DNA of 64,000 nt from an uncultured bacterium (GTDB lineage Bacteria > Cyanobacteriota > Vampirovibrionia > Gastranaerophilales > Gastranaerophilaceae), in contig CANENE010000006.1 in NCBI GenBank assembly GCA_947428835.1, positions 1 to 64,000 of the forward strand, written 5' to 3'. Positions 16,534 through 32,546 of the stretch are shown piece after piece; positions within the stretch are counted from its first letter, which is position 1; every line of letters starts with the position of its first letter. The translations under genes and the position numbers were made by a program. Under the pieces are notes generated by a model, which saw nothing but the letters and a program-made list of their open reading frames with translations, was not told where the DNA came from and did no database searches.

Positions 16534-17392
16534 GCAGATTGCGCATCATTTTTTCGATAGGAGTTGTGTCTATTTCATCTAAATGAAGTTGGGATGAAAT
16601 ATATTCAGGGTATCCTGTCACATCATCAAGATGAATTGTACCTCGGTCTTTATCTTTAGCACCACTATAGGTATCTACAAGTTGATAATATGCTTGAAAT
16701 TCTGTTTCATCAAGGAAGCCGTCATCATTTCCCATAGCTTCATCAATTACATTGAACACAGCTTGTGCTTCAAGGTAAACATCAGTCAGCATTTGAACAG
16801 CTTCATCTTTGCTATATAGTCCCGATTTAACGAATTCTTTCATATCATGAAGTGCCCCTTGGCTTGCAAGTTCGTCTGAAATATATTCTTTGAAACTTAC
16901 AAGATTATCTCCGTTGCCGTCCTTTTGCGCAACTTCGCCTTTACCAAGTTTTAAGGTTTGCTCATCATATTCTTTATCATTGGAAGCATCTTTGCCTTCC
17001 ATGAAATCAAAAGTCTCTCCGATTTTGTCGGTCAGGATTTCATACGTTTTAAAGGCATCTTGCCCTTCTTTATCATAATCCCCCTGTGCGAATTTTTTCA
17101 TGTTAATTGCGTGTTTCTTTTGCCAATTATTAAATTCGCTAAAAACATCCCCATTATCTTTGGCAGATTGTTCTTTTTTGTCTTTGCTGTTATTTTGTTT
17201 TTCAAAAATGCTTGAACTATCAGGAAGAGTAAGTTTGCTTCCGGCATTTATTTTATTCGGATCATCTAAACCGTTAGCTTCAGCAATCTTGTTTACTGCT
17301 TTTTGAATATCGGCATTTGACATATCTTTTCCGTATTGTGCTTTTGCAATATTCCAAAGATTGTCACCTGTATTAATTGTATAATCGCCCAT
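16523..17392 (-). CDS. LysM-domain protein with EF-hand-like calcium loops
   Basis: 289 residues. The N-terminal LysM domain (about 3-56, YTINTGDNLWNIAKAQYG ... INAGSKLTLP) binds peptidoglycan-type glycans. After a low-complexity linker there is a helical part with three acidic loops: KDGNGDNLVSFKEY (about 155), GNDDGFLDETEF (about 220), and DKDRGTIHLDD (about 247). These look like EF-hand loops, complete or nearly so. No signal peptide is visible, so export would need another route. Function unknown; a wall-associated calcium-responsive role is speculation. Confidence 0.8.
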   Translation of the reverse strand: MGDYTINTGDNLWNIAKAQYGKDMSNADIQKAVNKIAEANGLDDPNKINAGSKLTLPDSSSIFEKQNNSKDKKEQSAKDNGDVFSEFNNWQKKHAINMKKFAQGDYDKEGQDAFKTYEILTDKIGETFDFMEGKDASNDKEYDEQTLKLGKGEVAQKDGNGDNLVSFKEYISDELASQGALHDMKEFVKSGLYSKDEAVQMLTDVYLEAQAVFNVIDEAMGNDDGFLDETEFQAYYQLVDTYSGAKDKDRGTIHLDDVTGYPEYISSQLHLDEIDTTPIEKMMRNLLAE

Positions 17393-17578
17393 TTTTTTCT
17401 CTTGATTTTTATCTACTTTGTATATACTTAATAAACAAATTTTCTATATTTAAATTGCTAAAAAATATAATTATTCTTAATATTTTGTTACAAATAAAAA
17501 TTATTCGAAGATTGCCAAAAAGACCAATTAATGTTTTTTAATCAAGCAAATATACTTTAAATACAAAGGAGAACAAGG

Positions 17579-17881
17579 ATGTTTGTAGAATTAAATGACA
17601 ATAATTTTAAAAATGAAACAAAACAAGGTTTAAAGCTTGTAGATTTTTATACAACCTGGTGCAAATACTGCAATAATCAGCAAAAGGTCTTAGAAGAGCT
17701 AAGTGATAATGGTTTTTGGATAGGAAAATTAGACTGCGACAAACATGCCCAAATTGCACAAGAATATGGTGTAAGCGGCTTTCCAAGTTTTATACTTTTT
17801 AAAAACGGCCAAATAGCAGCTCAATTTGCGGGTTATCATACAAAAAACCAGCTTTTGGATAAACTTATATCATATGTATGA
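17579..17881 (+). CDS. Thioredoxin-fold protein with WCKYC active site
   Basis: 100 residues, full thioredoxin fold: VDFYTTWCKYCNNQQKVLEEL (about 22-42), then GVSGFPSFILFKNG with the cis-proline. The classic WCGPC is replaced by WCKYC, which should alter redox potential and partner choice. No signal peptide, so cytoplasmic. ATG 17579 has AAAGGAGAACA upstream. It stands alone between divergent and unrelated genes. Confidence 0.92.
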   Translation: MFVELNDNNFKNETKQGLKLVDFYTTWCKYCNNQQKVLEELSDNGFWIGKLDCDKHAQIAQEYGVSGFPSFILFKNGQIAAQFAGYHTKNQLLDKLISYV

Positions 17882-20090: not shown

Positions 20091-21929
20091 TTATTTCAAA
20101 CACTCTTTGTACATATCTTTGTACCCTTGCGCCATGACTTCCCAGCGTCTTTTTTTAAAGATTTCTTTTGCGTTTTTCTTTCCTTGTTCTCTGATGTATT
20201 CAAGATTATCTTTACACCAGTTAAAAGCTTCAATATATGCTTCAACTGTCCTTTCTTGAACAAGATATCCGTTTTCTTTGTGTCTGATTAATTCAGGTGC
20301 AATTCCAACTTTATTTGCTACAGGAAAACAACCACAAGCCATTGATTCAATTAAAGGCAATGGGTCTGCTTCATGTTGTGAGGCTACAACATAAACATCA
20401 TTTGCATTATAAAAATCAAGTAATTCTTCATGGGGTAAATTAGATGCCAGATTTAATTTAAACCTGTGTTTTGCTGCCGGGATAATTATATCTTCAACTC
20501 CTTTTAAAGTAAGCTTAATATTTCCTGCCCAGCAAATAGAAAATTCCCCTTTTCTTTCTTCTTTATAGTAGAATTTTTCGGGCGAATATCCTTTTCCTAT
20601 TAAAAATACTCTAGGATGAACATCTTTTAATAAATTATATAGAATTTGAGATGGGCAGCTTACATATTTAGCTTCATCCAAATAGCGCCTTGAAAATTCC
20701 AAAGGTGTGCAAGGCCCATATACCTTTTCAAATTGCCATTTATGAGATGATACTTGTTTTATTACTTTGCGCTTTGGAAATTTAAATTTTTTGTAATATG
20801 GTTCATCCCAAAAGAATACATGTAATAAATCATATTTTTTGGGTTTTAATTTTGGTTTATCAACCACAAATTTAATATCAACCAAAAAATCTCTATCAAG
20901 ATATTTTTTAATTTCCATTGCACTATGATGATGCGCCCAGTTTGGCCTGTCACATAGAAGACAGATTTTTGGTAATTTTATTTTCTTTCTTTTTGTAAAA
21001 TAAAATTTAAAGAGTCTTGAAATGTGTTTGGCAAAATTATTGCTGCTATAAGCTTTTGAAACTATATCAATCCATTTATCAGTCATAGCTTTTGTGCTAT
21101 AGTTATCTTTCAATATTTTTCTGCATTGATTAAAATCGAAATCAAATTTGATTTCACCTGATTTTATTTTTTCGATTTTTTCGTTCCAATCTTCATCATC
21201 TTTTACAATAAATTCTTTTGGATAATTTAAAAATTCAGCAAGTCTTACATATTCAGGAATATCGCTTATTAAAGCAGGAATGCCCAAATAAAGTGTTTTT
21301 AGCATTCTGCAATTATCTTTTGCAAGTCCCTGGGGATTTTTTAATTGAGGAAGTACAACCAAATCAAATTTTTGTATATTTTTGTCTACTGTATCTAACG
21401 ACCATTCAATGTCACCGTTTTTTGTAATAGTAGTAACATTTCTTATATTTTTAAATTTCAGAATTTTATAATTAACGGAAGTTCCAAACCAGCCGATTTT
21501 AGGGTTTTTTAAATCATATTTTCCAATAGGCATATCTTCATCTATAACGTCAGGGGTACCGTCTAAAACCCCTATATTGTCATTATATTTAAGATATTGT
21601 TCCTTCATATATTGGCAGCTTGTAATTGTAAAATCCGAATTTATAACAAAATTCAAACGTTCATCTAAAAATAAATCATCTATATCAAATATGATAAATT
21701 TATTGCTGAACATATATCTGAAAAATTTTTTTGCCAAAAATGAATAAGCGCTTTTTTGAAAAACAATAATATCAGCTTTTGCCAAATTTTCGTTTATTGA
21801 TACATCATATCCTCTTTTGATTAATTCCTGTGCTATATTATAGACTCTTATTCTTGTTGAACCTGTATTTTTATCGGTTGATGTATAAAAAACAATTTTC
21901 TTTCTTTTTAAATCCGGATTTTTATCCAT
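20091..21929 (-). CDS. Two-domain glycosyltransferase (GT4-type), fusion
   Basis: 612 residues made of two glycosyltransferase-like halves. The first (about 1-305) closely resembles the whole 307-residue protein at 28019 (STRIRVYNIAQELIKRGYDVSINENL, FDIDDL, KIGWFGTSVNYKI, LKTLYLGIPALISDIPEY). The second (about 310-612) is GT4/GT1-like: FLIGKGYSPEKF, SICWAGNIKLTLKGVEDI, then the donor site HEADPLPLIESMACGCFPVA. It probably adds sugars to a surface polysaccharide from the cytoplasmic face. Last gene of the leftward arm of the glycan island (25870 to 20091). Confidence 0.88.
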   Translation of the reverse strand: MDKNPDLKRKKIVFYTSTDKNTGSTRIRVYNIAQELIKRGYDVSINENLAKADIIVFQKSAYSFLAKKFFRYMFSNKFIIFDIDDLFLDERLNFVINSDFTITSCQYMKEQYLKYNDNIGVLDGTPDVIDEDMPIGKYDLKNPKIGWFGTSVNYKILKFKNIRNVTTITKNGDIEWSLDTVDKNIQKFDLVVLPQLKNPQGLAKDNCRMLKTLYLGIPALISDIPEYVRLAEFLNYPKEFIVKDDEDWNEKIEKIKSGEIKFDFDFNQCRKILKDNYSTKAMTDKWIDIVSKAYSSNNFAKHISRLFKFYFTKRKKIKLPKICLLCDRPNWAHHHSAMEIKKYLDRDFLVDIKFVVDKPKLKPKKYDLLHVFFWDEPYYKKFKFPKRKVIKQVSSHKWQFEKVYGPCTPLEFSRRYLDEAKYVSCPSQILYNLLKDVHPRVFLIGKGYSPEKFYYKEERKGEFSICWAGNIKLTLKGVEDIIIPAAKHRFKLNLASNLPHEELLDFYNANDVYVVASQHEADPLPLIESMACGCFPVANKVGIAPELIRHKENGYLVQERTVEAYIEAFNWCKDNLEYIREQGKKNAKEIFKKRRWEVMAQGYKDMYKECLK

Positions 21930-21946
21930 TTTATACCTATGCTATT

Positions 21947-22858
21947 CTATTTCGCCGGTGTTATTTTATTTATTATACCATCAATAAAATTTGCAAACTT
22001 GGATTTTATATGGGGTTTATGTCCTAAACGAACATAATTATAAAAATATTCGCTTAATTTGTCTCTTGCAATGAGTGTTTTTGTTTCTATATCCGTATTT
22101 TTATCAACAAATTTAACGTGTTTATCGCTAAATGAGCCCCTAAACAAATGATATGCTACTTCCCTTCCTTGATAACTGTATGCTTGAGTTCGAACTTCAT
22201 ATGAATGCTGGCCGATTTTTTTGGCTAATTCTTCAACAGGCTTTCCGACAAACGCTGTAAAGTTGCTATCGTCATTTTCGTTTGATAGGGCTTGCCTTAT
22301 TTTATAGCCGACATCATAGCTATAGTCTTTTTTATCTTTGAATGTTGTTTTGCATTCATTTCTTGCCCAATCGGACATATCGGCACAGCAATCCAGGTGT
22401 TGTATTAATTTTAAAGGATGAGCAGCACCCCAAAGAGCAGGGAACTTTGGATGACCTAGACCCACTCCATAGATATAGGGAGCACCAACTGCGACCTTGC
22501 CTTCTTTTAAAAATCCTTCAAGAAATTTCAGATGATTTTTGATACAGAAGAAGAAATCAGGATCTTCAGCCAGGAAATATTCGCTTTGAGCCATTTTGAG
22601 TGCAATAGTAAGCCCTTGACCGTGTTGATTTGAATCAATCAAATCAATTGGTTTATTGTAGACAATTTTTATATTATTCCATTTTTCGTTATATGGTTTG
22701 GTGAGTTCTTCTAATTCATCTTTTTGAAAAGGATTTGAATTATCAACAATAATTATCTCAAATTCATTCGGGTCATTGAATTCATATAAAATCTTTAGCT
22801 GCCATTTTAGATATACGGCTGTTTTATAATTAACGAATGCAACTGTCCATTTTTTCAT
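21947..22858 (-). CDS. Family 2 glycosyltransferase
   Basis: 303 residues. GT2 features: WTVAFVNYKTAVYLKWQLKIL, FEIIIVDNSNPFQ (about 30-45), and an acidic metal site in AEDPDFFF (about 97-104). The C-terminal part is helical and family-specific; no membrane segments, so a peripheral cytoplasmic transferase. Overlaps the acyltransferase gene upstream by 29 bases, a sign of one tightly packed operon. Confidence 0.88.
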   Translation of the reverse strand: MKKWTVAFVNYKTAVYLKWQLKILYEFNDPNEFEIIIVDNSNPFQKDELEELTKPYNEKWNNIKIVYNKPIDLIDSNQHGQGLTIALKMAQSEYFLAEDPDFFFCIKNHLKFLEGFLKEGKVAVGAPYIYGVGLGHPKFPALWGAAHPLKLIQHLDCCADMSDWARNECKTTFKDKKDYSYDVGYKIRQALSNENDDSNFTAFVGKPVEELAKKIGQHSYEVRTQAYSYQGREVAYHLFRGSFSDKHVKFVDKNTDIETKTLIARDKLSEYFYNYVRLGHKPHIKSKFANFIDGIINKITPAK

Positions 22859-23546
22859 CTTGGTTTTGTTCCTTTAAATACTTATCAAGTGTAGCTATTA
22901 TTTTTGCGGGATTTCCTGCAACTATGACGTTTTTTGGAAATGATTTTGTAACAACTGAGCCTGCTCCTACAATTGAATTTTCGCCCAAATGAACTCCTTT
23001 TAAAATCATAGAATTAGAGCCAATCCAGCAATTTTTTCCAATGACAACTTTTGCACTTTTAACCCTAACCCCCCCCTCTTTGCTATTTGGAAGAAGCCAT
23101 CTTTTATTGGGGTCAATATCGTGGAAATTTGAATCCATAATTGTAACGTTGAAACCAAACATCGTATCATCGTCTATAAAGACTCCGCCTTCATCGCCTT
23201 CGCCTTCTGCAATAATTGTTAGATTATTATTTACAAAAATGTGTTTTGCAAATTCAATTGTAGTATTGGGGTTTCTTGCTTCAAGGTAATTTGGCTGATA
23301 AAAATCAGGTGAAGTATCGCCTCCAAAGTTGTTGTTTCCGCCAAATATAAATTTTCCTTTACCTTTGAATATAGTTGGCACTCTAAAAACAGGATTTCCA
23401 ATGATTTCAACTTCATCAGACAGTATATTTTTTGCCCAAAATATATTGAACCACTGATAAATTGAAGCTATTTTTGAACGAAAGGTTTTGTGTTTTTTAA
23501 ACCATTGTTTAATTTTTGCCATATTTTTCCCTGTATTCTTGTTCAA
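22830..23546 (-). CDS. Left-handed beta-helix O-acetyltransferase (CatB/WcaF type)
   Basis: 238 residues with hexapeptide-repeat texture in the C-terminal two thirds: VVIGKNCWIGSNSMILKGVHLGENSIVGAGSVVTKSFPKNVIVAGNPAKII. The likely catalytic histidine is in MDSNFHDID (about 147). Acetylates a sugar of the surface glycan using acetyl-CoA; the acceptor is unknown. Overlaps both neighbours. Confidence 0.88.
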   Translation of the reverse strand: MNKNTGKNMAKIKQWFKKHKTFRSKIASIYQWFNIFWAKNILSDEVEIIGNPVFRVPTIFKGKGKFIFGGNNNFGGDTSPDFYQPNYLEARNPNTTIEFAKHIFVNNNLTIIAEGEGDEGGVFIDDDTMFGFNVTIMDSNFHDIDPNKRWLLPNSKEGGVRVKSAKVVIGKNCWIGSNSMILKGVHLGENSIVGAGSVVTKSFPKNVIVAGNPAKIIATLDKYLKEQNQDEKMDSCIR

Positions 23547-24078
23547 GCAGGCTCATGATATTGTAGTTTTTGTATTTTCCGTCTCTTAAGATACTTTCGC
23601 GCCAGGTGCCTTCATAGATAAAGCCCATTTTTTCATACAAAGATATGGCTCTTTCATTATCTTCAAGAACATATAGATAGAGCCTGTGCATATTCATATA
23701 ATCAAAGCCGTATTTAAATATCAAACGATATAGTTCTTTTGCATATCCTTTCGATTGAAATTTAGGGAAAATATCTCCTCCAACACACATGGACCTGTTT
23801 ATCAAATCAATGTCTGTTATTCTGGCGCATCCAAGAACGGTTACGTTTTCAAAATTTCCTGCAGAAGATGAGCTATCGGTTTTTGTCATTTCAAATGCCA
23901 TATAGCAACGTTTTGAATCGGATATAAGCCCTTCAAACCATTTTTGCTGTTTTGTATCATTTAAAAGACAAAATGTTCCAAGAAATTTATTTACATTTTC
24001 ATCTTGTCTGAGTTCTTTGAGCCAGTTAAGGTCTTCTTTTTCAATAAGCCTTAATCTAAAGCCATCATTTTGAATCAT
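23509..24078 (-). CDS. GNAT acetyltransferase (RimJ/RimL-like)
   Basis: 189 residues, full GNAT fold: FRLRLIEKEDLNWLKELRQDENV at the start, GGDIFPKFQSKGYAKELYRL for the acetyl-CoA pyrophosphate loop (about 113-130), and RLYLYVLEDNERAISLYEKMGF (about 143-165). In this setting it is more likely to acetylate an amino-sugar of the glycan than a ribosomal protein. Overlaps the next gene by 38 bases. Confidence 0.88.
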   Translation of the reverse strand: MIQNDGFRLRLIEKEDLNWLKELRQDENVNKFLGTFCLLNDTKQQKWFEGLISDSKRCYMAFEMTKTDSSSSAGNFENVTVLGCARITDIDLINRSMCVGGDIFPKFQSKGYAKELYRLIFKYGFDYMNMHRLYLYVLEDNERAISLYEKMGFIYEGTWRESILRDGKYKNYNIMSLLEQEYREKYGKN

Positions 24079-24109: not shown

Positions 24110-24733
24110 TTATTTTTTAGCTTCGAGTCTAAAATCTCTATTAAATCTTTGGCCATGGTAATTTGGATTTTTTATTTCTATTTCTTTATATCCCAATTTT
24201 TCAAGCTCACATTTTAAATGCATTGCTGACCAACCGAATTGATAAGTAAAATATTTGACTTTGTTTTTGTGCTGATTTAAGTCAAATGCGTAAATGGCGC
24301 GAAGCGCTTCAAGATATGCTGAATAATTTTGTTCACTATTTAGTGAATCTATATCAACAATATTTAAAGCAAGCTTTTTTATATCAGGGATTTCCACAGT
24401 CAGCATTCCACCTTCTTCAAGAAGGCTATAACAGTCTTTTAAAAAGTCTAAACTTTCATGAAATCTAAGATATGAAAGTCCGTGGATAATTTTGATATTT
24501 TTTATTGAATTATTTTTGAAATGGTTTTTGATATTTACCATATTCATAATCAAATCAATTTTATTTGATTTATTTGTATCAATATTTATCCAGCCTTTTT
24601 CATATAGGTGGCCTGCGCATAAATGCAAATTGAGTTCTTTTTTCTTCAAATATGAAAACAGCACATATAATTTTGTATATAAAATATTGTTTTTAAATAG
24701 TATATTTGCTGATTTTCTTAGAAATTTTTTCAT
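24110..24733 (-). CDS. SAM-dependent methyltransferase
   Basis: 207 residues, type 11 methyltransferase plan: LHLCAGHLYEKGWINIDTNKS (motif I region with LCAG for LGxG, about 36-56), IKIIHGLSYLRFHE (motif II, about 81), LLEEGGMLTVEIPDI (motif III, about 104-118). Likely methylates a sugar or lipid-linked glycan intermediate. Follows the DegT aminotransferase by nine bases. Confidence 0.82.
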   Translation of the reverse strand: MKKFLRKSANILFKNNILYTKLYVLFSYLKKKELNLHLCAGHLYEKGWINIDTNKSNKIDLIMNMVNIKNHFKNNSIKNIKIIHGLSYLRFHESLDFLKDCYSLLEEGGMLTVEIPDIKKLALNIVDIDSLNSEQNYSAYLEALRAIYAFDLNQHKNKVKYFTYQFGWSAMHLKCELEKLGYKEIEIKNPNYHGQRFNRDFRLEAKK

Positions 24734-24742
24734 TATAAACCC

Positions 24743-25870
24743 TTATTTTGCATATTTTATAACTTTTTCTGCTATATATTCTCTTTGTTCTTTGGTTACC
24801 CACCAGCCGACAGGTATACAAAGATGGGTTTTATTGAATTGTTCAACACCCGGAAGATTTGTTTTAAATTCAGCAAACATAGAGTGGGTGTCGTTTCTGG
24901 CGTGGACTTTTGATGCCATGATATCGAGCTCTTTTAATTTTGACATCAATTCGTCTCTGTTATTGATGTGGATTGTATACAGCCAATAAGAAGATTTGCC
25001 GTCCGGGTTTTCTAATAACGGTGTAACATTTGGAGCATCTTTAAATGCTTCATCATAAAATTTTGCATTTTCTCTATGCTTAGATATAATTTCAGGAAGG
25101 TGTTTGAAATTGGCATTGCCGATAACGGCACAAATGTCATTCATGTGAAATTTGTATCCTGCTTCAGGAACGTCAATTTCGCATCTTAAATCTATACCTT
25201 CTCTTATGGTTCTATCTATTCCATACCATTTAAGCAGTTTTGCTCTTTCAAAATCTTTTTCGGATTTCATCCACAATAAGCCGCCATCAACTGATGTTAT
25301 GTGTTTTATTGCCTGCAGAGAATTCATTGAATAATCTGAATGATTGCCGAATTTTTGACCTTTGTATTCCATGCCCATAGCATGAGCGCCATCTTCTACT
25401 GTTTTAATTCCGGCTTCGTGGGCGATTTTATTTATTTTTTCTATATCACAGGGATTTCCGCCCCAGTGAACCATTGTGACTGCTTTTGTATGTTTTGTAA
25501 TTTTTCTTTCGATATCTTCAGGTGAAATTGAACCTGTGATAGGGTCAACATCTGCCCAAACAATTTTTGCGCCGTTGCTTAAAATTGGCGTATTTGTTGC
25601 AGTACAGGTAATGGGCGTTGTGATTATTTCATCTTCATTTGAATTATAATAGCCTTTGTAGTCGTTTTGATGCAGCGCCATATGATATGCAAGATGCAAG
25701 CCTGATGTTCCTGAGTTTAATGTAACAAGTTTGTCGTTTCCTGTATAGGCTTTTAGGTTTTCTTCAAATTCCTGAACCTTAGGACCTTCTCCTATCCAGC
25801 CGCTGTGTATTGTTTCCAAAAGAGGTTCATCAATATCTTTTGATATATAAACTTTAAACAAAGGTATCAT
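24743..25870 (-). CDS. DegT/DnrJ/EryC1/StrS sugar aminotransferase
   Basis: 375 residues. PLP-dependent transfer of an amino group to a keto-sugar nucleotide. The Schiff-base lysine is in MNSLQAIKHITSVDGG (about residue 190); also seen are LVTLNSGTSGLHLA (about 53-66) and VEDGAHAMG (about 156). First gene of the leftward glycan arm, directly after the candidate invertible promoter. Ribosome site AAAGGAGAATTAA before ATG. Confidence 0.93.
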   Translation of the reverse strand: MIPLFKVYISKDIDEPLLETIHSGWIGEGPKVQEFEENLKAYTGNDKLVTLNSGTSGLHLAYHMALHQNDYKGYYNSNEDEIITTPITCTATNTPILSNGAKIVWADVDPITGSISPEDIERKITKHTKAVTMVHWGGNPCDIEKINKIAHEAGIKTVEDGAHAMGMEYKGQKFGNHSDYSMNSLQAIKHITSVDGGLLWMKSEKDFERAKLLKWYGIDRTIREGIDLRCEIDVPEAGYKFHMNDICAVIGNANFKHLPEIISKHRENAKFYDEAFKDAPNVTPLLENPDGKSSYWLYTIHINNRDELMSKLKELDIMASKVHARNDTHSMFAEFKTNLPGVEQFNKTHLCIPVGWWVTKEQREYIAEKVIKYAK

Positions 25871-25923: not shown

Positions 25924-26051
25924 GTCTGCAACATATTATCTAAAAAGGTGCTGTCAGACTATTTGTTGATTTTAAACGAATTTTTTCATTTTTCCCACGC
26001 TAATTATACCACATACATAGAAAAGTCCATATTAGATAATATGTTTCAGAC
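25924..26051. repeat. 20-bp inverted repeats around an 88-bp segment (candidate invertible promoter)
   Basis: Left repeat GTCTGCAACATATTATCTAA (25924-25943); right repeat 26032-26051 is its inverse with one mismatch (A for C at the sixth base). Similarity extends a few T-rich bases outward. The 88 bases between (25944-26031) hold a leftward promoter. The element sits between the two divergent arms of the glycan island. No open reading frame inside. Confidence 0.75.
26003..26029 (-). promoter_or_regulatory. Leftward extended -10 promoter inside the inverted repeats
   Basis: On the minus strand: TGGACT (26029-26024), 15-base spacer, TATAAT (26008-26003) preceded by TGG, giving the extended -10 TGGTATAAT. 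Predicted start near 25996, reading through the left repeat toward 25870. Inversion of the segment would point it to the gene at 26124. Confidence 0.6.
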
Positions 26052-26123
26052 GAAAATACAAAAGATATTGAGGATATAAATTCAAAATATAGTATCCGAC
26101 TTTGCAGGAATTTGGAGAAAAGT

Positions 26124-27257
26124 ATGAAAGTTCAATTGTTTAAACCAAAATATAGAGTTGAAGAATGTCTAAAAGAAATTCGAGAATGCCTTGAAATCGG
26201 ATGGACAGGCCTAGGCTTTAAAACAGTTAAATTTGAACAAGCTTGGATAAAATATACAGGGTTAAAATATGCCCATTATCTAAATTCTTCAACAGTCGGA
26301 TTAGATATGGCAGTTGAAATTTTAAAGATGGAATATGGTTGGAATGATGAAGATGAAATTATAACAACACCTGTTACATTTATATCAACAAACCATGCGA
26401 TTTTAAGAAACAAGATGAAACCCATTTTTGCAGATATTGATAATTCGCTAAATTTAGACCCTAAAGACGTAAAAAAGAAAATTTCAAACAAAACAAGAGC
26501 AATAATGTTTGTGGGGCTTGGGGGAAATACCGCAAATTTGAAAGAAATAGAAACAATTTGCAAAGAACATAATCTTAAATTGATATTAGATGCTGCACAT
26601 ATGGCAGGAACTAAATATACAGATGGCAGTTTACCGGGCGCAGACGCTGATGCTATTGTTTATTCTTTTCAGGCTGTAAAAAATTGTCCGACAGGTGATA
26701 GCGGTATGATTTGTTTTAAAGAAAAGAAACTTGACGATATTGCAAGGAAAATGTCCTGGCTTGGAATAAATAAAGATACCTATGCCCGCTCTACAAATAA
26801 AGATGGTGCCTATAAATGGAAATATGATGTTGAATACCTAGGCTACAAGGCGCATGGTAATTCAATTATGGCGTCACTTGGATTAGTTGGTTTAAAATAT
26901 TTAGATCAAGATAATGCCTATAGAAGAAATTTAGCAAAAATTTATGATAAAGAATTTGAAAATTGTGAAAATATTAAACTTATCTTAACGGATAAAGATT
27001 GTATTTCTTCGCGCCATTTATATCAAATTCTTGTTCCAAAAAGAGAAGATTTGATATCAAAATTAAATGAAAATGAAATATACCCCGGTGTTCACTACCT
27101 TGATAACACCGAATATAGAATGTATTCTTACGCTAAAGGCACCTGCCCTTTTGCAAAATATGTATCAAAGCATATTTTATCTTTGCCTTTGCATCTTGAT
27201 ATCAAAGAAGAAGATGTGAAAAGAATTGCAAAAATAGTAAAAGAAAATGTTGTGTAA
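26124..27257 (+). CDS. DegT/DnrJ/EryC1/StrS sugar aminotransferase (second copy)
   Basis: 377 residues from ATG 26124, chosen because TGGAGAA lies just upstream; an in-frame TTG at 26112 is less likely. Same family as the gene at 24743 but only distantly alike. Key sites: HYLNSSTVGLDMAV (about 52-65), LILDAAHMAGT (about 154), and YSFQAVKNCPTGDSG with the PLP lysine (about 184). First gene of the rightward glycan arm. Has no convincing promoter of its own in the gap, which matters for the switch hypothesis. Confidence 0.92.
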   Translation: MKVQLFKPKYRVEECLKEIRECLEIGWTGLGFKTVKFEQAWIKYTGLKYAHYLNSSTVGLDMAVEILKMEYGWNDEDEIITTPVTFISTNHAILRNKMKPIFADIDNSLNLDPKDVKKKISNKTRAIMFVGLGGNTANLKEIETICKEHNLKLILDAAHMAGTKYTDGSLPGADADAIVYSFQAVKNCPTGDSGMICFKEKKLDDIARKMSWLGINKDTYARSTNKDGAYKWKYDVEYLGYKAHGNSIMASLGLVGLKYLDQDNAYRRNLAKIYDKEFENCENIKLILTDKDCISSRHLYQILVPKREDLISKLNENEIYPGVHYLDNTEYRMYSYAKGTCPFAKYVSKHILSLPLHLDIKEEDVKRIAKIVKENVV

Positions 27258-27273
27258 TTAAAAGGAGAAAAAT

Positions 27274-28035
27274 ATGAGGATAAAAATAATTCAAAATATT
27301 ATTGATAAAATAAGAAACAAAAAGACAAATAAAATTGAAGACGGGCCCTTTGTTTTTGACAGAAAAACGGTATTATCTGAAATTCACAATATCTTGAAGC
27401 CTAAATTATATTTAGAAATAGGTATTCGAGACGGCTTTTCGTTGACTTGTGCAAATGATGAAACTGATATCATAGCAGTTGACCCAAATCCCATAATTGC
27501 TTATAAGCTTCCTTCTAAAACCAAAATCTATAAAGAAACCAGTGATGATTTTTTCAAATTGCACGATATTAAATCAATATATAACCAAGAAACAGACTTA
27601 GCTTTTATTGACGGTATGCATTTATTTGATTTTGTATTGAGAGATTTTATTAATGTTGAAAAAAATTCCAAAAAAGATTCTGTTATTTTATTGCATGATA
27701 CAATTCCTATTGATGCGCCATCTGCTACAAGAATCTCTACCGAAAAAAATTTAAAGTATTGGTCCGGTGATGTGTACAAAATAATGTTAATTTTGAAAGA
27801 ATTCAGACCTGATTTGGAATTAATTAATTTAAATGTTCCAAAAACAGGTTTATGTATTGTTAAAAACTTAAATCCAAATTCGACAGTTTTAAAAGACAAT
27901 TACGACAAAACTATTGAAAAATATATGAATTATTCTTTTGACTATATTCAGGAAAGAAAAAATGAAATATTAAATGTCAAAAATATTACACCTGAAAACT
28001 ATAAGGAAACATTAAGTGATGTTTTTAGAAAATAA
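27274..28035 (+). CDS. Class I SAM methyltransferase (Methyltransf_24-like)
   Basis: 253 residues. LYLEIGIRDGFSLTCA (motif I, about 46-61), IIAVDPNPII (about 67-76), and DLAFIDGMHLFDFVLRDF then VILLHDTIP (about 108-150) are the family's signature for O-methylation of sugars or small molecules. AAAGGAGAAAA ribosome site. Overlaps the next gene by 17 bases. Confidence 0.87.
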   Translation: MRIKIIQNIIDKIRNKKTNKIEDGPFVFDRKTVLSEIHNILKPKLYLEIGIRDGFSLTCANDETDIIAVDPNPIIAYKLPSKTKIYKETSDDFFKLHDIKSIYNQETDLAFIDGMHLFDFVLRDFINVEKNSKKDSVILLHDTIPIDAPSATRISTEKNLKYWSGDVYKIMLILKEFRPDLELINLNVPKTGLCIVKNLNPNSTVLKDNYDKTIEKYMNYSFDYIQERKNEILNVKNITPENYKETLSDVFRK

Positions 28036-28939
28036 AAAAATAGCATTTATAACCGCAGGTCATGAAAATATAGGCTCTACCAGGCAAAGGGTGTATAGAA
28101 TATCAAAAGAATTAATAAAAAGAGGCTATAGTGTTTCAATAAATGAAAATTTAAAGCAGGCTGATATTTTGATTTTTCAAAAAAGTGACTATAAGTTTTT
28201 AAAGAAAAATTTTTTTAAGTACTTATTTTCTAACAAATTTATAGTCTTTGATGTAGATGATATGTATGTTGGCAATTATTTGAAGCTGGTAAAATATTCT
28301 GATTTAGTAATTGCAGGATCTAAATATTTGGCGGATTTTTATAAACAATACAATCAAAATATATCAGTGTTGGATGATGCCCTTGATGTTACTGATGAAA
28401 ATATTGAATTGAAGAAAAACTTCAATTTGAAAAATCCTAAAATCGGTTGGTTTGGAACAACGAAAAATTTGCCGATAGTAGAAAATCTACATATAAATAA
28501 TTTGAAAACAATCACACGTGATGGAGACATTGAATGGAATAGAGAAACTGTTGATTATGATATTCAAAAGTTTGATTTAATGTGTATTCCACAGGAAAAA
28601 ACGCCTGTCGGTTTATCTAAAGGCAATTGCAGAATGCTAAAAGCACTTTATTTAGGTGTTGCTGTTCTTGCAAGTGATATCCCTCCATATATCGAACTTG
28701 CCGAATTAATTAACTATCCAAAAGAATTTATCGTAAAAGATGGTGAAGACTGGAATAAAAAAATAGAAAAAATAAAATCCGATGAAATTAAATTTGAATT
28801 TGATTTTGTGCAAGCTCGAAAGAAATTATTTGATATCTACAGTATATGTTCAAGAACTGATTTTTGGCTAAAAATAGTTGATGAGTCTTACAAAGAAAAA
28901 AATATTTCTCAACATATTAAAAAATTGCTTCATTTGTAA
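28019..28939 (+). CDS. Glycosyltransferase-like protein matching the N half of the 612-residue transferase
   Basis: 306 residues. The body (STRQRVYRISKELIKRGYSVSINENL, FQKSDYKFL, FIVFDVDDMY, KIGWFGTTKNL, GNCRMLKALYLGVAVLASDIPPY, NYPKEFIVKDGEDWNKKIEKIKS) matches the first half of the protein at 20091 nearly end to end. It lacks the C-terminal GT4 half, so it either works alone or with another transferase. ATG 28019 is used; a GTG three bases earlier is possible. The duplication sits one in each arm of the island. Confidence 0.82.
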   Translation: MFLENKKIAFITAGHENIGSTRQRVYRISKELIKRGYSVSINENLKQADILIFQKSDYKFLKKNFFKYLFSNKFIVFDVDDMYVGNYLKLVKYSDLVIAGSKYLADFYKQYNQNISVLDDALDVTDENIELKKNFNLKNPKIGWFGTTKNLPIVENLHINNLKTITRDGDIEWNRETVDYDIQKFDLMCIPQEKTPVGLSKGNCRMLKALYLGVAVLASDIPPYIELAELINYPKEFIVKDGEDWNKKIEKIKSDEIKFEFDFVQARKKLFDIYSICSRTDFWLKIVDESYKEKNISQHIKKLLHL

Positions 28940-28977
28940 AAACCTTTCTTCTTTTTTGTAAAGAAAAGGAGAAAATT

Positions 28978-29532
28978 ATGAATTATGTTGAACCAATCAG
29001 AAAAAAGAAAGATATTAAAAGCATTGAAAGTTATTTATCTAAGTCAAGCAAAAGAGACCGCCTGATTTTTGTTTTTGGAATTAATACAGGCCTTAGAATA
29101 TCTGATATTTTGGCGCTTGATGTATCAGATGTAAAAGAAAAAACATATATATCAATCAAAGAAAAGAAAACAGGAAAATATAAAAAAATTCCTTTAAATA
29201 ATAAACTAAGAAAACTAACAAAAGAATATTTAAAAGATTATTCGTTAATTAAATCAAACACTCCTTTGTTTCTTGGAGAAAAAGGCAAAAGACTGCATCG
29301 CTCTATAGTTTATAGATTTTTAAATGAAGCGGCGCAGGTTCTTAAATTAAATATTGGTGCAGTGGGGACTCATACAATGAGAAAAACTTTTGGCTATCAT
29401 CACTATAAGCAATTTAACAATATTGCTTTATTGCAAAACATACTAAATCACAGCTCGCCTTCCATCACTTTAAGATATATTGGAATATCCCAGGATGAAA
29501 TTGATTATTCTTATTCTAATTTTGAATTATAG
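28978..29532 (+). CDS. Small tyrosine recombinase (integrase family), catalytic domain only
   Basis: 184 residues, about half of a normal integrase: the core-binding N-terminal domain is essentially absent. All catalytic residues are present: R in GINTGLRISDIL (about 41), K in KKTGKYKK (about 66), HTMR (about 136-139), H in LNHSSPSIT (about 160), and Y in LRYIGIS (about 170). AAAGGAGAAAATT ribosome site. Last gene of the rightward glycan arm, 38 bases after the previous gene. A minimal invertase of this type could act on the 25924-26051 repeats; that link is inference. It may also be an integrase relic. Confidence 0.88.
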   Translation: MNYVEPIRKKKDIKSIESYLSKSSKRDRLIFVFGINTGLRISDILALDVSDVKEKTYISIKEKKTGKYKKIPLNNKLRKLTKEYLKDYSLIKSNTPLFLGEKGKRLHRSIVYRFLNEAAQVLKLNIGAVGTHTMRKTFGYHHYKQFNNIALLQNILNHSSPSITLRYIGISQDEIDYSYSNFEL

Positions 29533-29539
29533 GGTTAAC

Positions 29540-30559
29540 CTAAATTCCATAAAATTCTCTATACCATTGAACGAAATTATGAACACCAACTTCGACATCA
29601 ATTTGAGGTTTAAAGTCAAAAGTTTCATATAAATCCGAATTATCTGCTTCTGATTTTACAACTTCGCCCGGTTGAATAGGCATAAAATTAATAATTGCTT
29701 TTTTGCCGATTTCTTTTTCCATAAGTTCAATATAGCGCATAAGTTCGACAGGGTGCGAATTTCCTATATTATAAATTTTAAAAGGTGCAACGCCGCTTCT
29801 GGATGGATCGGGAACCGCTGCATTTCTATCCCAATCAGGGTCAGGCGTTGGAACATCTCCAAGCAGAACCTTGCAAACACCTTGCGCTATATCTTCAACA
29901 TAAGTAAAATCTCTTATCATTTTGCCGTTATTAAAGACATTAATCGGTTTTCCTTCAATAATATTTTTAACAAAGATAAACAAAGCCATATCGGGTCTGC
30001 CCCAAGGGCCATAAGCATTAAAAAATCTTAAGCCTGTTGTCGGTATTTTAAATAAATGTGCATAAGAGTGGGCTATAACTTCATTTGCCTTTTTTGTTGC
30101 GGCATAAAGGCTCAATTGATGATTGCATCCATCTGTTTCATCCCAGGGCATTTTATTGTTTGCTCCATAAACAGAAGCAGTTGAAGCAAATACGAAATGT
30201 TCAACCTCGTTGTTTCTGCATTGTTCTTCGAGGTTTACAAAGCCGATTAAATTAGAATCAACATAGGCATAAGGATTTTCGAAGCTATAGCGGACCCCTG
30301 CCTGTGCTGCTAAATTTAAGACCCTTTTGGGTTTGTGCTGACTAAAAACACGCCCCAAATTTTCTCTATCAATTAAATCAATTCTTTCTTCAATGAAATT
30401 ATCAAATTTATGAAGGTTTTTAAGACGGGCTTCTTTTAAATTAACGTCATAATAATCATTGACGTTATCTATTCCGATAACCGTATGGCCATCTTTTAGA
30501 AGTTTTAGGGCAACAAAATGCCCGATAAAACCTGCTGTTCCTGTGACAAGTAATTTCAT
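29540..30559 (-). CDS. NAD-dependent sugar epimerase, UDP-glucuronate 4-epimerase type
   Basis: 339 residues, extended short-chain dehydrogenase: TGTAGFIGHFVALKLL (about 6-21), IGIDNVNDYYDVNLKEARL (the signature of UDP-glucuronate epimerases, about 29-48), FASTASVYG and the YAATK catalytic pair (about 125-157), then GLRFFNAYGPWGRPDMA. Converts UDP-glucuronate to UDP-galacturonate, most likely using product from the dehydrogenase gene beside it (one base apart). Confidence 0.92.
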   Translation of the reverse strand: MKLLVTGTAGFIGHFVALKLLKDGHTVIGIDNVNDYYDVNLKEARLKNLHKFDNFIEERIDLIDRENLGRVFSQHKPKRVLNLAAQAGVRYSFENPYAYVDSNLIGFVNLEEQCRNNEVEHFVFASTASVYGANNKMPWDETDGCNHQLSLYAATKKANEVIAHSYAHLFKIPTTGLRFFNAYGPWGRPDMALFIFVKNIIEGKPINVFNNGKMIRDFTYVEDIAQGVCKVLLGDVPTPDPDWDRNAAVPDPSRSGVAPFKIYNIGNSHPVELMRYIELMEKEIGKKAIINFMPIQPGEVVKSEADNSDLYETFDFKPQIDVEVGVHNFVQWYREFYGI

Positions 30560-31315
30560 TTATTTATCCTCTCCTCTAAAAGCTATATTTAAAGGCTGCA
30601 TTTCTTTTAAAAGATTGTGGATAGGAAGCCCTTCGGTCATTTTAGTGAGTGCATTAACGTCTTTCGGGAAACATTTTCCGCCATAGCCGAATTTGCCGTC
30701 GGGCCCCGGTACACTTGTGTGGGGAGCATTAATATAGCCGCTTAATAAAATACCTTCTTGTATTTTTCTATAATTTGCTTCCATTTTTTCGCAAAGATTA
30801 TAAATTCCGTTGAAGTAGGTAACTTTCAAAGCACCAAAGACATTATGGGCGTATTTTGTAAGCTCTGCTTCAAGGGAAGACATTGTGATAAATTTTTTGC
30901 CTGTGAATATTTTTTTAAGAAGCTCAACTTCTGCAGTAAAAATCATCGGCTGTGAACAAAAATCCTGATAAGCTGTTCTTTCTGTGAGAAATTCCGGCAT
31001 AAAGTGAACCTTGCGATTGCATTCTATTGATAATTTTTTGCTCGTTTCGGGAAGTATGGTTGTTCTTATAAAAATCGGCTTATCGGGCAGGTTGCAGATA
31101 ATTTCTTTTAAAAGAGTCAAATCCTGGCTGCCGTCTGCTTCTGTTGGTATATGAATGCTGATAAAAATAATATCAGAGCTGCTCAAATCATCATTATAGC
31201 CTTTATAAGGGTCACTTATTAAAAGATCAATATTTGGATTATGCTCTTCAATCCAACGTTTTAGTGCACCTCCGATAAAGCCGCATCCGACTATTCCAAC
31301 TTTAATATTACCCAT
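30560..31315 (-). CDS. Short UDP-glucose/GDP-mannose dehydrogenase-like protein
   Basis: About 251 residues from the ATG at 31315 (earlier in-frame ATG at 31327 is possible). Rossmann start VGIVGCGFIGGALKRW, VISIHIPTEADGSQDL-like segment (ISIHIPTEADG), the central helix domain with LTKYAHNVFGALKVTYFN, and catalytic cysteine in GYGGKCFPKD (about 215). The C-terminal UDP-binding domain of normal 400-450-residue enzymes is missing, so it is a naturally short form or has lost the domain. Next to the epimerase, suggesting UDP-glucuronate supply. Confidence 0.82.
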   Translation of the reverse strand: MGNIKVGIVGCGFIGGALKRWIEEHNPNIDLLISDPYKGYNDDLSSSDIIFISIHIPTEADGSQDLTLLKEIICNLPDKPIFIRTTILPETSKKLSIECNRKVHFMPEFLTERTAYQDFCSQPMIFTAEVELLKKIFTGKKFITMSSLEAELTKYAHNVFGALKVTYFNGIYNLCEKMEANYRKIQEGILLSGYINAPHTSVPGPDGKFGYGGKCFPKDVNALTKMTEGLPIHNLLKEMQPLNIAFRGEDK

Positions 31316-31319
31316 ATTT

Positions 31320-32546
31320 TTATTCATTCTCCCAATTTTCAATAACATAATTATAATATTCTAATAATTTTTGTGCAATCTTTTGCGGGCTTAGGTTTTC
31401 GGTTCTTTGATATGAAGCAAGCTCTACCCCCCCCTTGTCATCTTTAGATAGTTCCATAAGTTCAATAATTTTTTCTTTCAGGCTATTGCTATCACCTGCT
31501 TTGGCTAAAAATCCGCTGACTTTATCATCTATCAATTGCGAAAAATTGCCTTCGGTTCCAATTACGATTTTTTTAAGTCTCATTGCTTCAACGCAGGCGT
31601 TTGAAAAATTTTCGATTAAAGATGGCATCAAAACCCCATAAGAATTTTCAATTACAGGATATAGTTTTTCATGAGGGACAGAATTAAAATGCAAGATTCT
31701 GTTTAAATGTTTTTCGGCTTTTTGTTTAATAAAATCAACGTAATTTGGCTCACTTGGCAAATCAATTGTTTTTCCGATTAAAACCAAATAAAGGTTCGGA
31801 TATTTTTCAAAGATATCTTTGATACACAGCGCTATTTCTTTTGCACCTTTTAATCTTTTTATTGTTCCAAAAAACAACAGATATGGGTTATTTGAGGTCT
31901 TGTATTTAATTTCATCTAAAATTGATGTGTCAAATTCGATGTCCTCATTATCATAGGGGGATTCGATTATTTTTATTTCTTTTTTTTCATTCAAATCTTT
32001 TTTGATAATATCTGCAATGTGTTTTGAAGGCCCGAAGATAAATTTTTGGTTTTTGATTTGCTGCGTTTCAAAGGTGATTTCGTTTTCATTTATGGAATCA
32101 TAATATTTTTGAGAAACTTTTGCCCAGGAAGAAATTCTAAGACAGCAAGGTATATCTTTTAAAGGAGAACGGCCAAGACCAAGGCAGCTTGCATATTGGA
32201 CAATATCAATTTTTGCTTTTTTGTTTTCTTCTTTTATAAAATCAGGCAATGTTTTGGTACAAAAATAATTTAATTTTATTTCTCTTCTTTGAATACCTTT
32301 TAAAAAGCACCAAATAATTTTTTTAAAAAAAGTTTTTTTGAAGCCGCTGTTTGTATTTAGAAAATGAACATTAATACCTTTGAAATTGAAGTGTTTTTCA
32401 ATATCATCTTTAACAATTACATCTATGTCGTGGCCAAGGTTTTTTAGGGCAATTGTTATTTTATAAAGATAATTTGCAAGGCCTCCGTCAATAACTTTTA
32501 ATGTATTTGGATTAATATATTCGCTTGTAACAAATAATATTCTCAC
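31320..32546 (-). CDS. Family 4 glycosyltransferase
   Basis: 408 residues, GT-B fold: RILFVTSEYINP and DGGLANYLYKITIALKNLGHDIDVI at the start; YLLFFGTIKRLKGAKEIALCI and YLVLIGK in the second lobe; then HEKLYPVIENSYGVLMPSLIENFSNACVEAMRLKKIVIGTEG, the donor nucleotide site. Probably first gene of the leftward transferase-dehydrogenase-epimerase operon. No signal or membrane segment. Confidence 0.92.
   Translation of the reverse strand: MRILFVTSEYINPNTLKVIDGGLANYLYKITIALKNLGHDIDVIVKDDIEKHFNFKGINVHFLNTNSGFKKTFFKKIIWCFLKGIQRREIKLNYFCTKTLPDFIKEENKKAKIDIVQYASCLGLGRSPLKDIPCCLRISSWAKVSQKYYDSINENEITFETQQIKNQKFIFGPSKHIADIIKKDLNEKKEIKIIESPYDNEDIEFDTSILDEIKYKTSNNPYLLFFGTIKRLKGAKEIALCIKDIFEKYPNLYLVLIGKTIDLPSEPNYVDFIKQKAEKHLNRILHFNSVPHEKLYPVIENSYGVLMPSLIENFSNACVEAMRLKKIVIGTEGNFSQLIDDKVSGFLAKAGDSNSLKEKIIELMELSKDDKGGVELASYQRTENLSPQKIAQKLLEYYNYVIENWENE

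Follow-up and report, generated by a model that had tools for sequence, protein, structure and literature searches.

A candidate invertible promoter with a linked tyrosine recombinase, set between two glycan operons of a Gastranaerophilales genome

Does the short DNA segment that separates two divergent glycan operons in this genome turn around, carrying its promoter with it, so that now one operon and now the other is read? The window analysed here, a stretch of 64,000 nucleotides, comes from a MAG of Candidatus Gastranaerophilales (Melainabacteria) with a 1.8-Mb assembly. An earlier note on this DNA had proposed a promoter flipped between the two operons by a nearby recombinase. Comparison with related loci supports that proposal: cognate sites lie beside the closest relatives of the enzyme, the segment is found the other way round at one of these loci, and inversions are seen elsewhere in the recombinase family. 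We consider it likely, with a probability of roughly 0.8, that positions 25927-26048 form an invertible promoter, flipped by the recombinase encoded from 28978 and toggling two glycan operons. We infer, working from the sequence, that this particular segment flips, that the recombinase (P0001) flips it, that the promoter fires both ways and that the products decorate the cell surface.

The left arm consists of six closely packed genes on the minus strand, running from 25870 to 20091, and the right arm, which begins only 73 bp past the repeat, ends with the recombinase:

24743..25870, minus strand: left gene 1, DegT/DnrJ/EryC1 sugar aminotransferase, PseC-like, under the PseC cut-off
24110..24733, minus strand: left gene 2, 207 aa, SAM-dependent methyltransferase-like by eye
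23509..24078, minus strand: left gene 3, GNAT acetyltransferase
22830..23546, minus strand: left gene 4, hexapeptide-repeat acyltransferase
21947..22858, minus strand: left gene 5, family 2 glycosyltransferase
20091..21929, minus strand: left gene 6, glycosyltransferase group 1 (GT4-type)
26124..27257, plus strand: right gene 1, second DegT-family sugar aminotransferase
27274..28035, plus strand: right gene 2, Methyltransf_24 methyltransferase
28016..28939, plus strand: right gene 3, glycosyltransferase-like, paralogous to residues 1-307 of the 20091 protein
28978..29532, plus strand: right gene 4, tyrosine recombinase P0001, 184 aa, single domain

The 207-aa product of left gene 2 has no Pfam family match, and more sugar genes follow beyond the right arm (29540-32546). 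The two DegT aminotransferases share 32% identity, and the right glycosyltransferase-like protein matches the N-terminal half of the left GT4 protein at 58% identity, so that the arms resemble alternative versions of one programme. The half-copy looks as though the arms arose via partial duplication. In a test for PseC, and hence pseudaminic acid, the aminotransferases reached 231 and 209 bits, where the cut-off is 423.5; the sugar cannot be named from these scores. The recombinase gene follows the preceding gene of the right arm after 38 bp, with no terminator-like sequence visible by eye between them, implying that it is probably co-transcribed with that arm. When the genus was searched with the left aminotransferase and with the right glycosyltransferase-like protein, no close relative of either turned up, and so no conspecific-like locus at which orientations could be compared.

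Between the arms lie two 20-base repeats, GTCTGCAACATATTATCTAA (25924-25943, plus strand) and GTCTGAAACATATTATCTAA (26032-26051, minus strand), which match at 19 of 20 positions and enclose 88 bases, just as the earlier note had described. The pair is unique in the genome and well beyond chance. No further copy of the arms at up to two mismatches is present in the entire 1.8-Mb assembly, none of 100 dinucleotide shuffles of the window gave two arm matches (expected chance copies, zero), and none of 40 locally (Markov) shuffled windows held an equally good inverted repeat at 40-400 bp spacing. The region is AT-rich in base composition, and neither a terminator scan nor Rfam matching of the repeat found a terminator or family. 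The homology of the arms extends inward to an asymmetric 26-bp site (25927-25952 and 26048-26023), longer than the 20 bases first described. The region contains the following elements:

25927..25952, plus strand: predicted left recombination site TGCAACATATTATCTAAAAAGGTGCT, with outer half-site, centre TTATCTA and 'A'-type inner half-site AAAAGGTGC
25944..26031, no strand: 88-base segment predicted to invert; the homologous segment lies the opposite way in locus L124
26003..26011, minus strand: extended -10 TGGTATAAT, facing left from the B end; TATAAT is similarly placed in loci L075, L076 and L124
26023..26048, minus strand: predicted right recombination site TGAAACATATTATCTAATATGGACTT, with 'B'-type inner half-site TATGGACTT

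The two arms thus differ in their inner half-sites, AAAAGGTGC on the left and TATGGACTT on the right, the 'A' type being matched by AAAGGCGC in L124 and by AAAAAGGTGC in the repeat of L134. Across the 383 genomes of the order, the site pattern was found mostly as single sites within coding genes, little above a control pattern, and pairs of it occurred only at loci with a recombinase. For the 291-bp intergenic region as a whole, the genus offered as closest matches nothing but short, AT-rich similarities due to chance.

The promoter predicted within the segment is the extended -10 sequence TGGTATAAT at 26011-26003 on the minus strand, which faces left as had been claimed; the best plus-strand -10 candidate inside the segment, GATAAT without the TG, is weaker. 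A sigma-70 scan for -35/-10 pairs did not list TGGTATAAT, since no good -35 element lies at 16-18 bp, which is usual for promoters of the extended -10 type. In the window and at L075, L076 and L124 alike, TATAAT stands roughly 6-14 bases inside the B end (TATGGACTT), a placement with a chance of about 3% per locus from base composition. A predicted promoter within the segment is what would be expected of an inverton. Where the earlier note saw no convincing promoter ahead of 26124, a weak candidate, TTGAGG-16-TAGTAT, can be picked out by eye in 26052-26123.

P0001 has a Phage_integrase domain (1.3e-25), and its residues R40, K63/K64, H132, R135, H158 and Y167 are kept throughout a ten-member alignment. 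The domain and the R-K-H-R-H-Y set place it in the tyrosine recombinase superfamily, and the earlier identification of a small enzyme of this kind at 28978 stands. It scores 31.1 and 33.5 bits with the FimB/FimE-type invertase models NF007370 and NF007371, against cut-offs of 221 and 222, and 76 bits in the XerC/XerD test against 335, with the match confined to the catalytic domain. Its closest relatives are three recombinases of 72-76% identity (L075, L076 and L124), encoded in MAGs labelled Candidatus Gastranaerophilales or Candidatus Melainabacteria, and in a maximum-likelihood tree of 108 relatives the four form a clade with support 100/98. Outside the lineage, the best sequence relatives in phage and plasmid collections are full-length matches to small 'site-specific integrases' of about 180 aa, mostly from Bacillota and mostly at 47-50% identity. 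The same genome encodes a second recombinase of the family, with 54% identity (L048, contig C8:75000-93166, at 17289-17852). Its neighbour is a type I restriction cluster in which two HsdM-like proteins accompany one of 582 aa that has N6_Mtase and Methylase_S matches; up to the contig end, no spaced inverted pair was found.

If the repeats of the window are sites for P0001, do its nearest relatives have sites of the same kind? In all three (L075, L076 and L124), an inverted site pair lies directly upstream of the recombinase gene. At L075 it is a perfect 26-bp inverted repeat, TGAAACATAATATCCAATATGGACTT, with a 73-bp spacer, 45 bp upstream of a recombinase 73% identical to P0001, and the right site of the window, TGAAACATATTATCTAATATGGACTT, is identical to it at 24 of 26 positions. 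The L076 pair shares TATCTATTATGACT, while the L124 pair, AAACATTATATCCATAAAGGCGC and CATCTTAATATCCATTATGGACTT, is asymmetric (A/B) like that of the window. The window pair is 2.9 kb, or three genes, from its recombinase, in contrast with the adjacent pairs of the three relatives. The other neighbours at those loci are DNA methyltransferase and restriction genes, not glycan genes: an EcoRI-type methylase with a GmrSD/HNH protein, an N6_N4_Mtase with ResIII, and an N6_N4_Mtase. Four loci therefore share recombinase and sites but carry unrelated cargo, implying that the sites travel with the recombinase rather than with the cargo; by sequence comparison, the repeats of the window are matched to a linked recombinase, as in an inverton.

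Orientation differs among the four loci. At three of them (the window, L075 and L076) the B end is the one closest to the recombinase side, and the promoter points away from the recombinase. L124 is reversed: its A end (AAAGGCGC) is the near one, its B end the distant one, and the promoter points towards the recombinase. A homologous segment thus lies the opposite way in a related species. The alignment with related genomes that the earlier note had suggested thus finds the repeats at all three loci and the segment reversed at one. The idea that the promoter always faces away from the recombinase, true of three of the four loci, fails in L124.

Within the wider recombinase family, both orientations of a segment exist. 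The clearest case is that of L180 and L181, in which the recombinase genes (543/543) and the left (300/300) and right (500/500) flanks are identical, and a 247-bp segment is 100% identical only as the reverse complement. Where bases differ at the outer arm edges, the differences go with the flanks, placing the crossover inside the arms. L177 and L179 agree in their flanks at 281/300 and 466/500 positions, and in segment plus arms at 172/176 as the reverse complement; a third, weaker inversion, between L087 and L140, shows 78% identity over 183 bp, reversed. In these comparisons, upstream-side matches of about 50-60 bp are palindromes and were disregarded. L177 and L179 fall inside a 39-member clade with P0001 in the tree of 108 relatives, and L180 and L193 in a separate clade. 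Over the fetched loci, the 81 kb that lie no more than 400 bp from a recombinase of the family contain 15 inverted repeats scoring at least 18 with 40-300 bp spacing, and the other 596 kb contain 4. The density near recombinases is thus about 27-fold higher, a descriptive figure, since the 400-bp zone was picked after the pattern was first seen. Of the 4 repeats elsewhere, two have the same type of site and follow a recombinase at a distance of some 680 bp. Other branches usually have their repeats immediately downstream of the recombinase gene and ahead of glycosyltransferase, AlgX-like (O-acetyltransferase-related) or restriction/methylase-like genes. No inverted repeat was found near the very conserved orthologous group L157-L176 (57-59% identity to P0001, many genera), so that an invertase role is not shown for every family member.

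Other arrangements were seen within the family. L180 (G106:C19) and L181 (G110:C2) each hold two tandem recombinase-plus-repeat cassettes, 100% identical save for the one inverted segment; by genome label the two belong to different genera, which is a case of recent transfer plus inversion. At each of L059 (76-1387), L092 (5905-7349) and L099 (6001-7275), a single inverted-repeat pair lies between two different small recombinases, an arrangement resembling a two-enzyme switch. In L065 (8576-9235) the recombinase gene is itself enclosed by 28-bp inverted repeats (604 bp segment), so that the enzyme gene would invert too. In L053 (4871-6136) a phage virion morphogenesis gene (Phage_tail_S) is followed directly by a recombinase with an inverted pair, which suggests that some switches ride on prophages. 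Finally, the family member at L085 (799-1383), on a contig labelled Muribaculaceae (Bacteroidota), nests among Gastranaerophilales sequences, reflecting either misbinning or transfer.

How might the switch work? P0001 would bind the two inverted 26-bp sites and invert the 88-base segment between them. In the orientation sequenced, the extended -10 would read left into the six-gene glycan operon (25870-20091); in the inverted state it would read right into 26124-29532, the aminotransferase, methyltransferase and glycosyltransferase set with the recombinase gene last. The cell would thereby toggle between two sugar-decoration programmes, their products presumably at the surface. Since the recombinase would be produced chiefly when the promoter reads right, that state should be the less stable; the bias may yet be modest, as the recombinase-facing state is the one caught in the L124 assembly. 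A further idea is that the toggle limits itself, the right programme making the enzyme that ends it, with a stable left state and the right a transient pulse, and that promoter and recombinase form a module moved between restriction-modification and glycan loci in Gastranaerophilales; this we hold tentatively, at slightly worse than even odds.

Could the repeat instead have nothing to do with inversion? The AT-rich surroundings would suit a chance or structural repeat, such as a terminator or MITE-like remnant, but the pair is unique in the genome where zero copies are expected, matches no terminator or Rfam family, and has conserved counterparts beside orthologous recombinases that already refute this reading, to which we give almost no credence. 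A pair of transcription-factor operators, acting without DNA inversion, is scarcely better placed. A repeat between divergent operons, overlapping the promoter region, is compatible with it; near-identical sites that recur beside orthologous recombinases with unrelated cargo, and repeats of family members that bound segments inverted between relatives, are not readily so, and we regard it as very improbable.

The remaining alternatives concern the fate of the switch and its reach. The window copy may have decayed or become locked, having lost the ability to flip and leaving the promoter to drive the left operon permanently. The unlike inner half-sites might slow or lock switching, the distance of 2.9 kb and three genes between recombinase and sites is unlike the arrangement of the closest relatives, and one orientation is known at this locus. 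P0001 is nevertheless an intact enzyme that keeps every catalytic residue, the arms agree in their outer half-sites and central overlap (19/20), and L124 has the same inner asymmetry yet its segment lies the other way round; a locked switch thus seems improbable, though clearly less so than operators. Doubtful too, but the most plausible of these alternatives, is an ON/OFF switch of the left operon only, with the right arm, under a weak promoter of its own, supplying recombinase in both states. This is a sub-case of the inversion model, so that its probability overlaps that given above. The weak TTGAGG-16-TAGTAT upstream of 26124 could serve such an arm, and the repeats downstream of the recombinase in other branches imply that the promoter need not control the recombinase. 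In L075, L076 and L124, however, the flipped promoter would read straight into the recombinase gene, and the 73 bp between repeat and right arm also favours a switch that toggles both operons.

The inversion model is of a known kind. Gut Bacteroidales and other phyla have well-known invertible promoters at surface-polysaccharide and restriction loci (PMC12632263, PMC11892184, PMC8375218). Like the candidate in the window, the invertons of Bacteroidales comprise a short promoter segment between inverted repeats beside surface-polysaccharide genes, and also occur at restriction-modification loci. The window system differs in belonging to Melainabacteria, in having its own site sequences and one dedicated recombinase per site pair, and in that one putatively switched operon ends with the recombinase gene. 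The earlier note was mistaken in attributing the flipping of Bacteroides capsule promoters to tyrosine enzymes: the classic capsule promoters of B. fragilis are flipped by the serine recombinase Mpi, and tyrosine recombinases act at other surface loci. Coyne 2003 and Weinacht 2004 appear by title among the references of PMC12632263. In E. coli type 1 pili, fimS is served by FimB and FimE, which like P0001 are small tyrosine recombinases (about 200 aa) and which flip a promoter; the similarity of P0001 to the NCBIfam 'tyrosine-type DNA invertase' models is weak (33 bits against a cut-off of 222), and it is not a member. The fim recombinase genes lie outside the switch and have their own promoters. 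PsrA of Streptococcus pneumoniae, which drives hsdS inversions, links a tyrosine recombinase to a phase-variable restriction system (PMC7096588, PMC4948785). L075, L076 and L124 likewise have a tyrosine recombinase at a restriction locus, but PsrA shuffles coding segments, whereas the window system would turn a promoter.

A search of full-text literature, with most subscription papers outside its coverage, for Melainabacteria or Gastranaerophilales together with inversion or recombinase gave nothing relevant; neither a paper on phase variation in Gastranaerophilales nor a description of this mechanism in the lineage was found. The earlier description of an undescribed switch in this lineage agrees with that, but the locus is no one-off: it belongs to a family-wide, recombinase-linked set found also beside restriction-modification genes. 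Gastranaerophilales are common, almost entirely uncultured gut relatives of the cyanobacteria, and the comparison shows many invertible segments linked to recombinases in their genomes, next to glycan and restriction genes. So many such segments predict mixed populations, whose members would differ in surface and in phage sensitivity.
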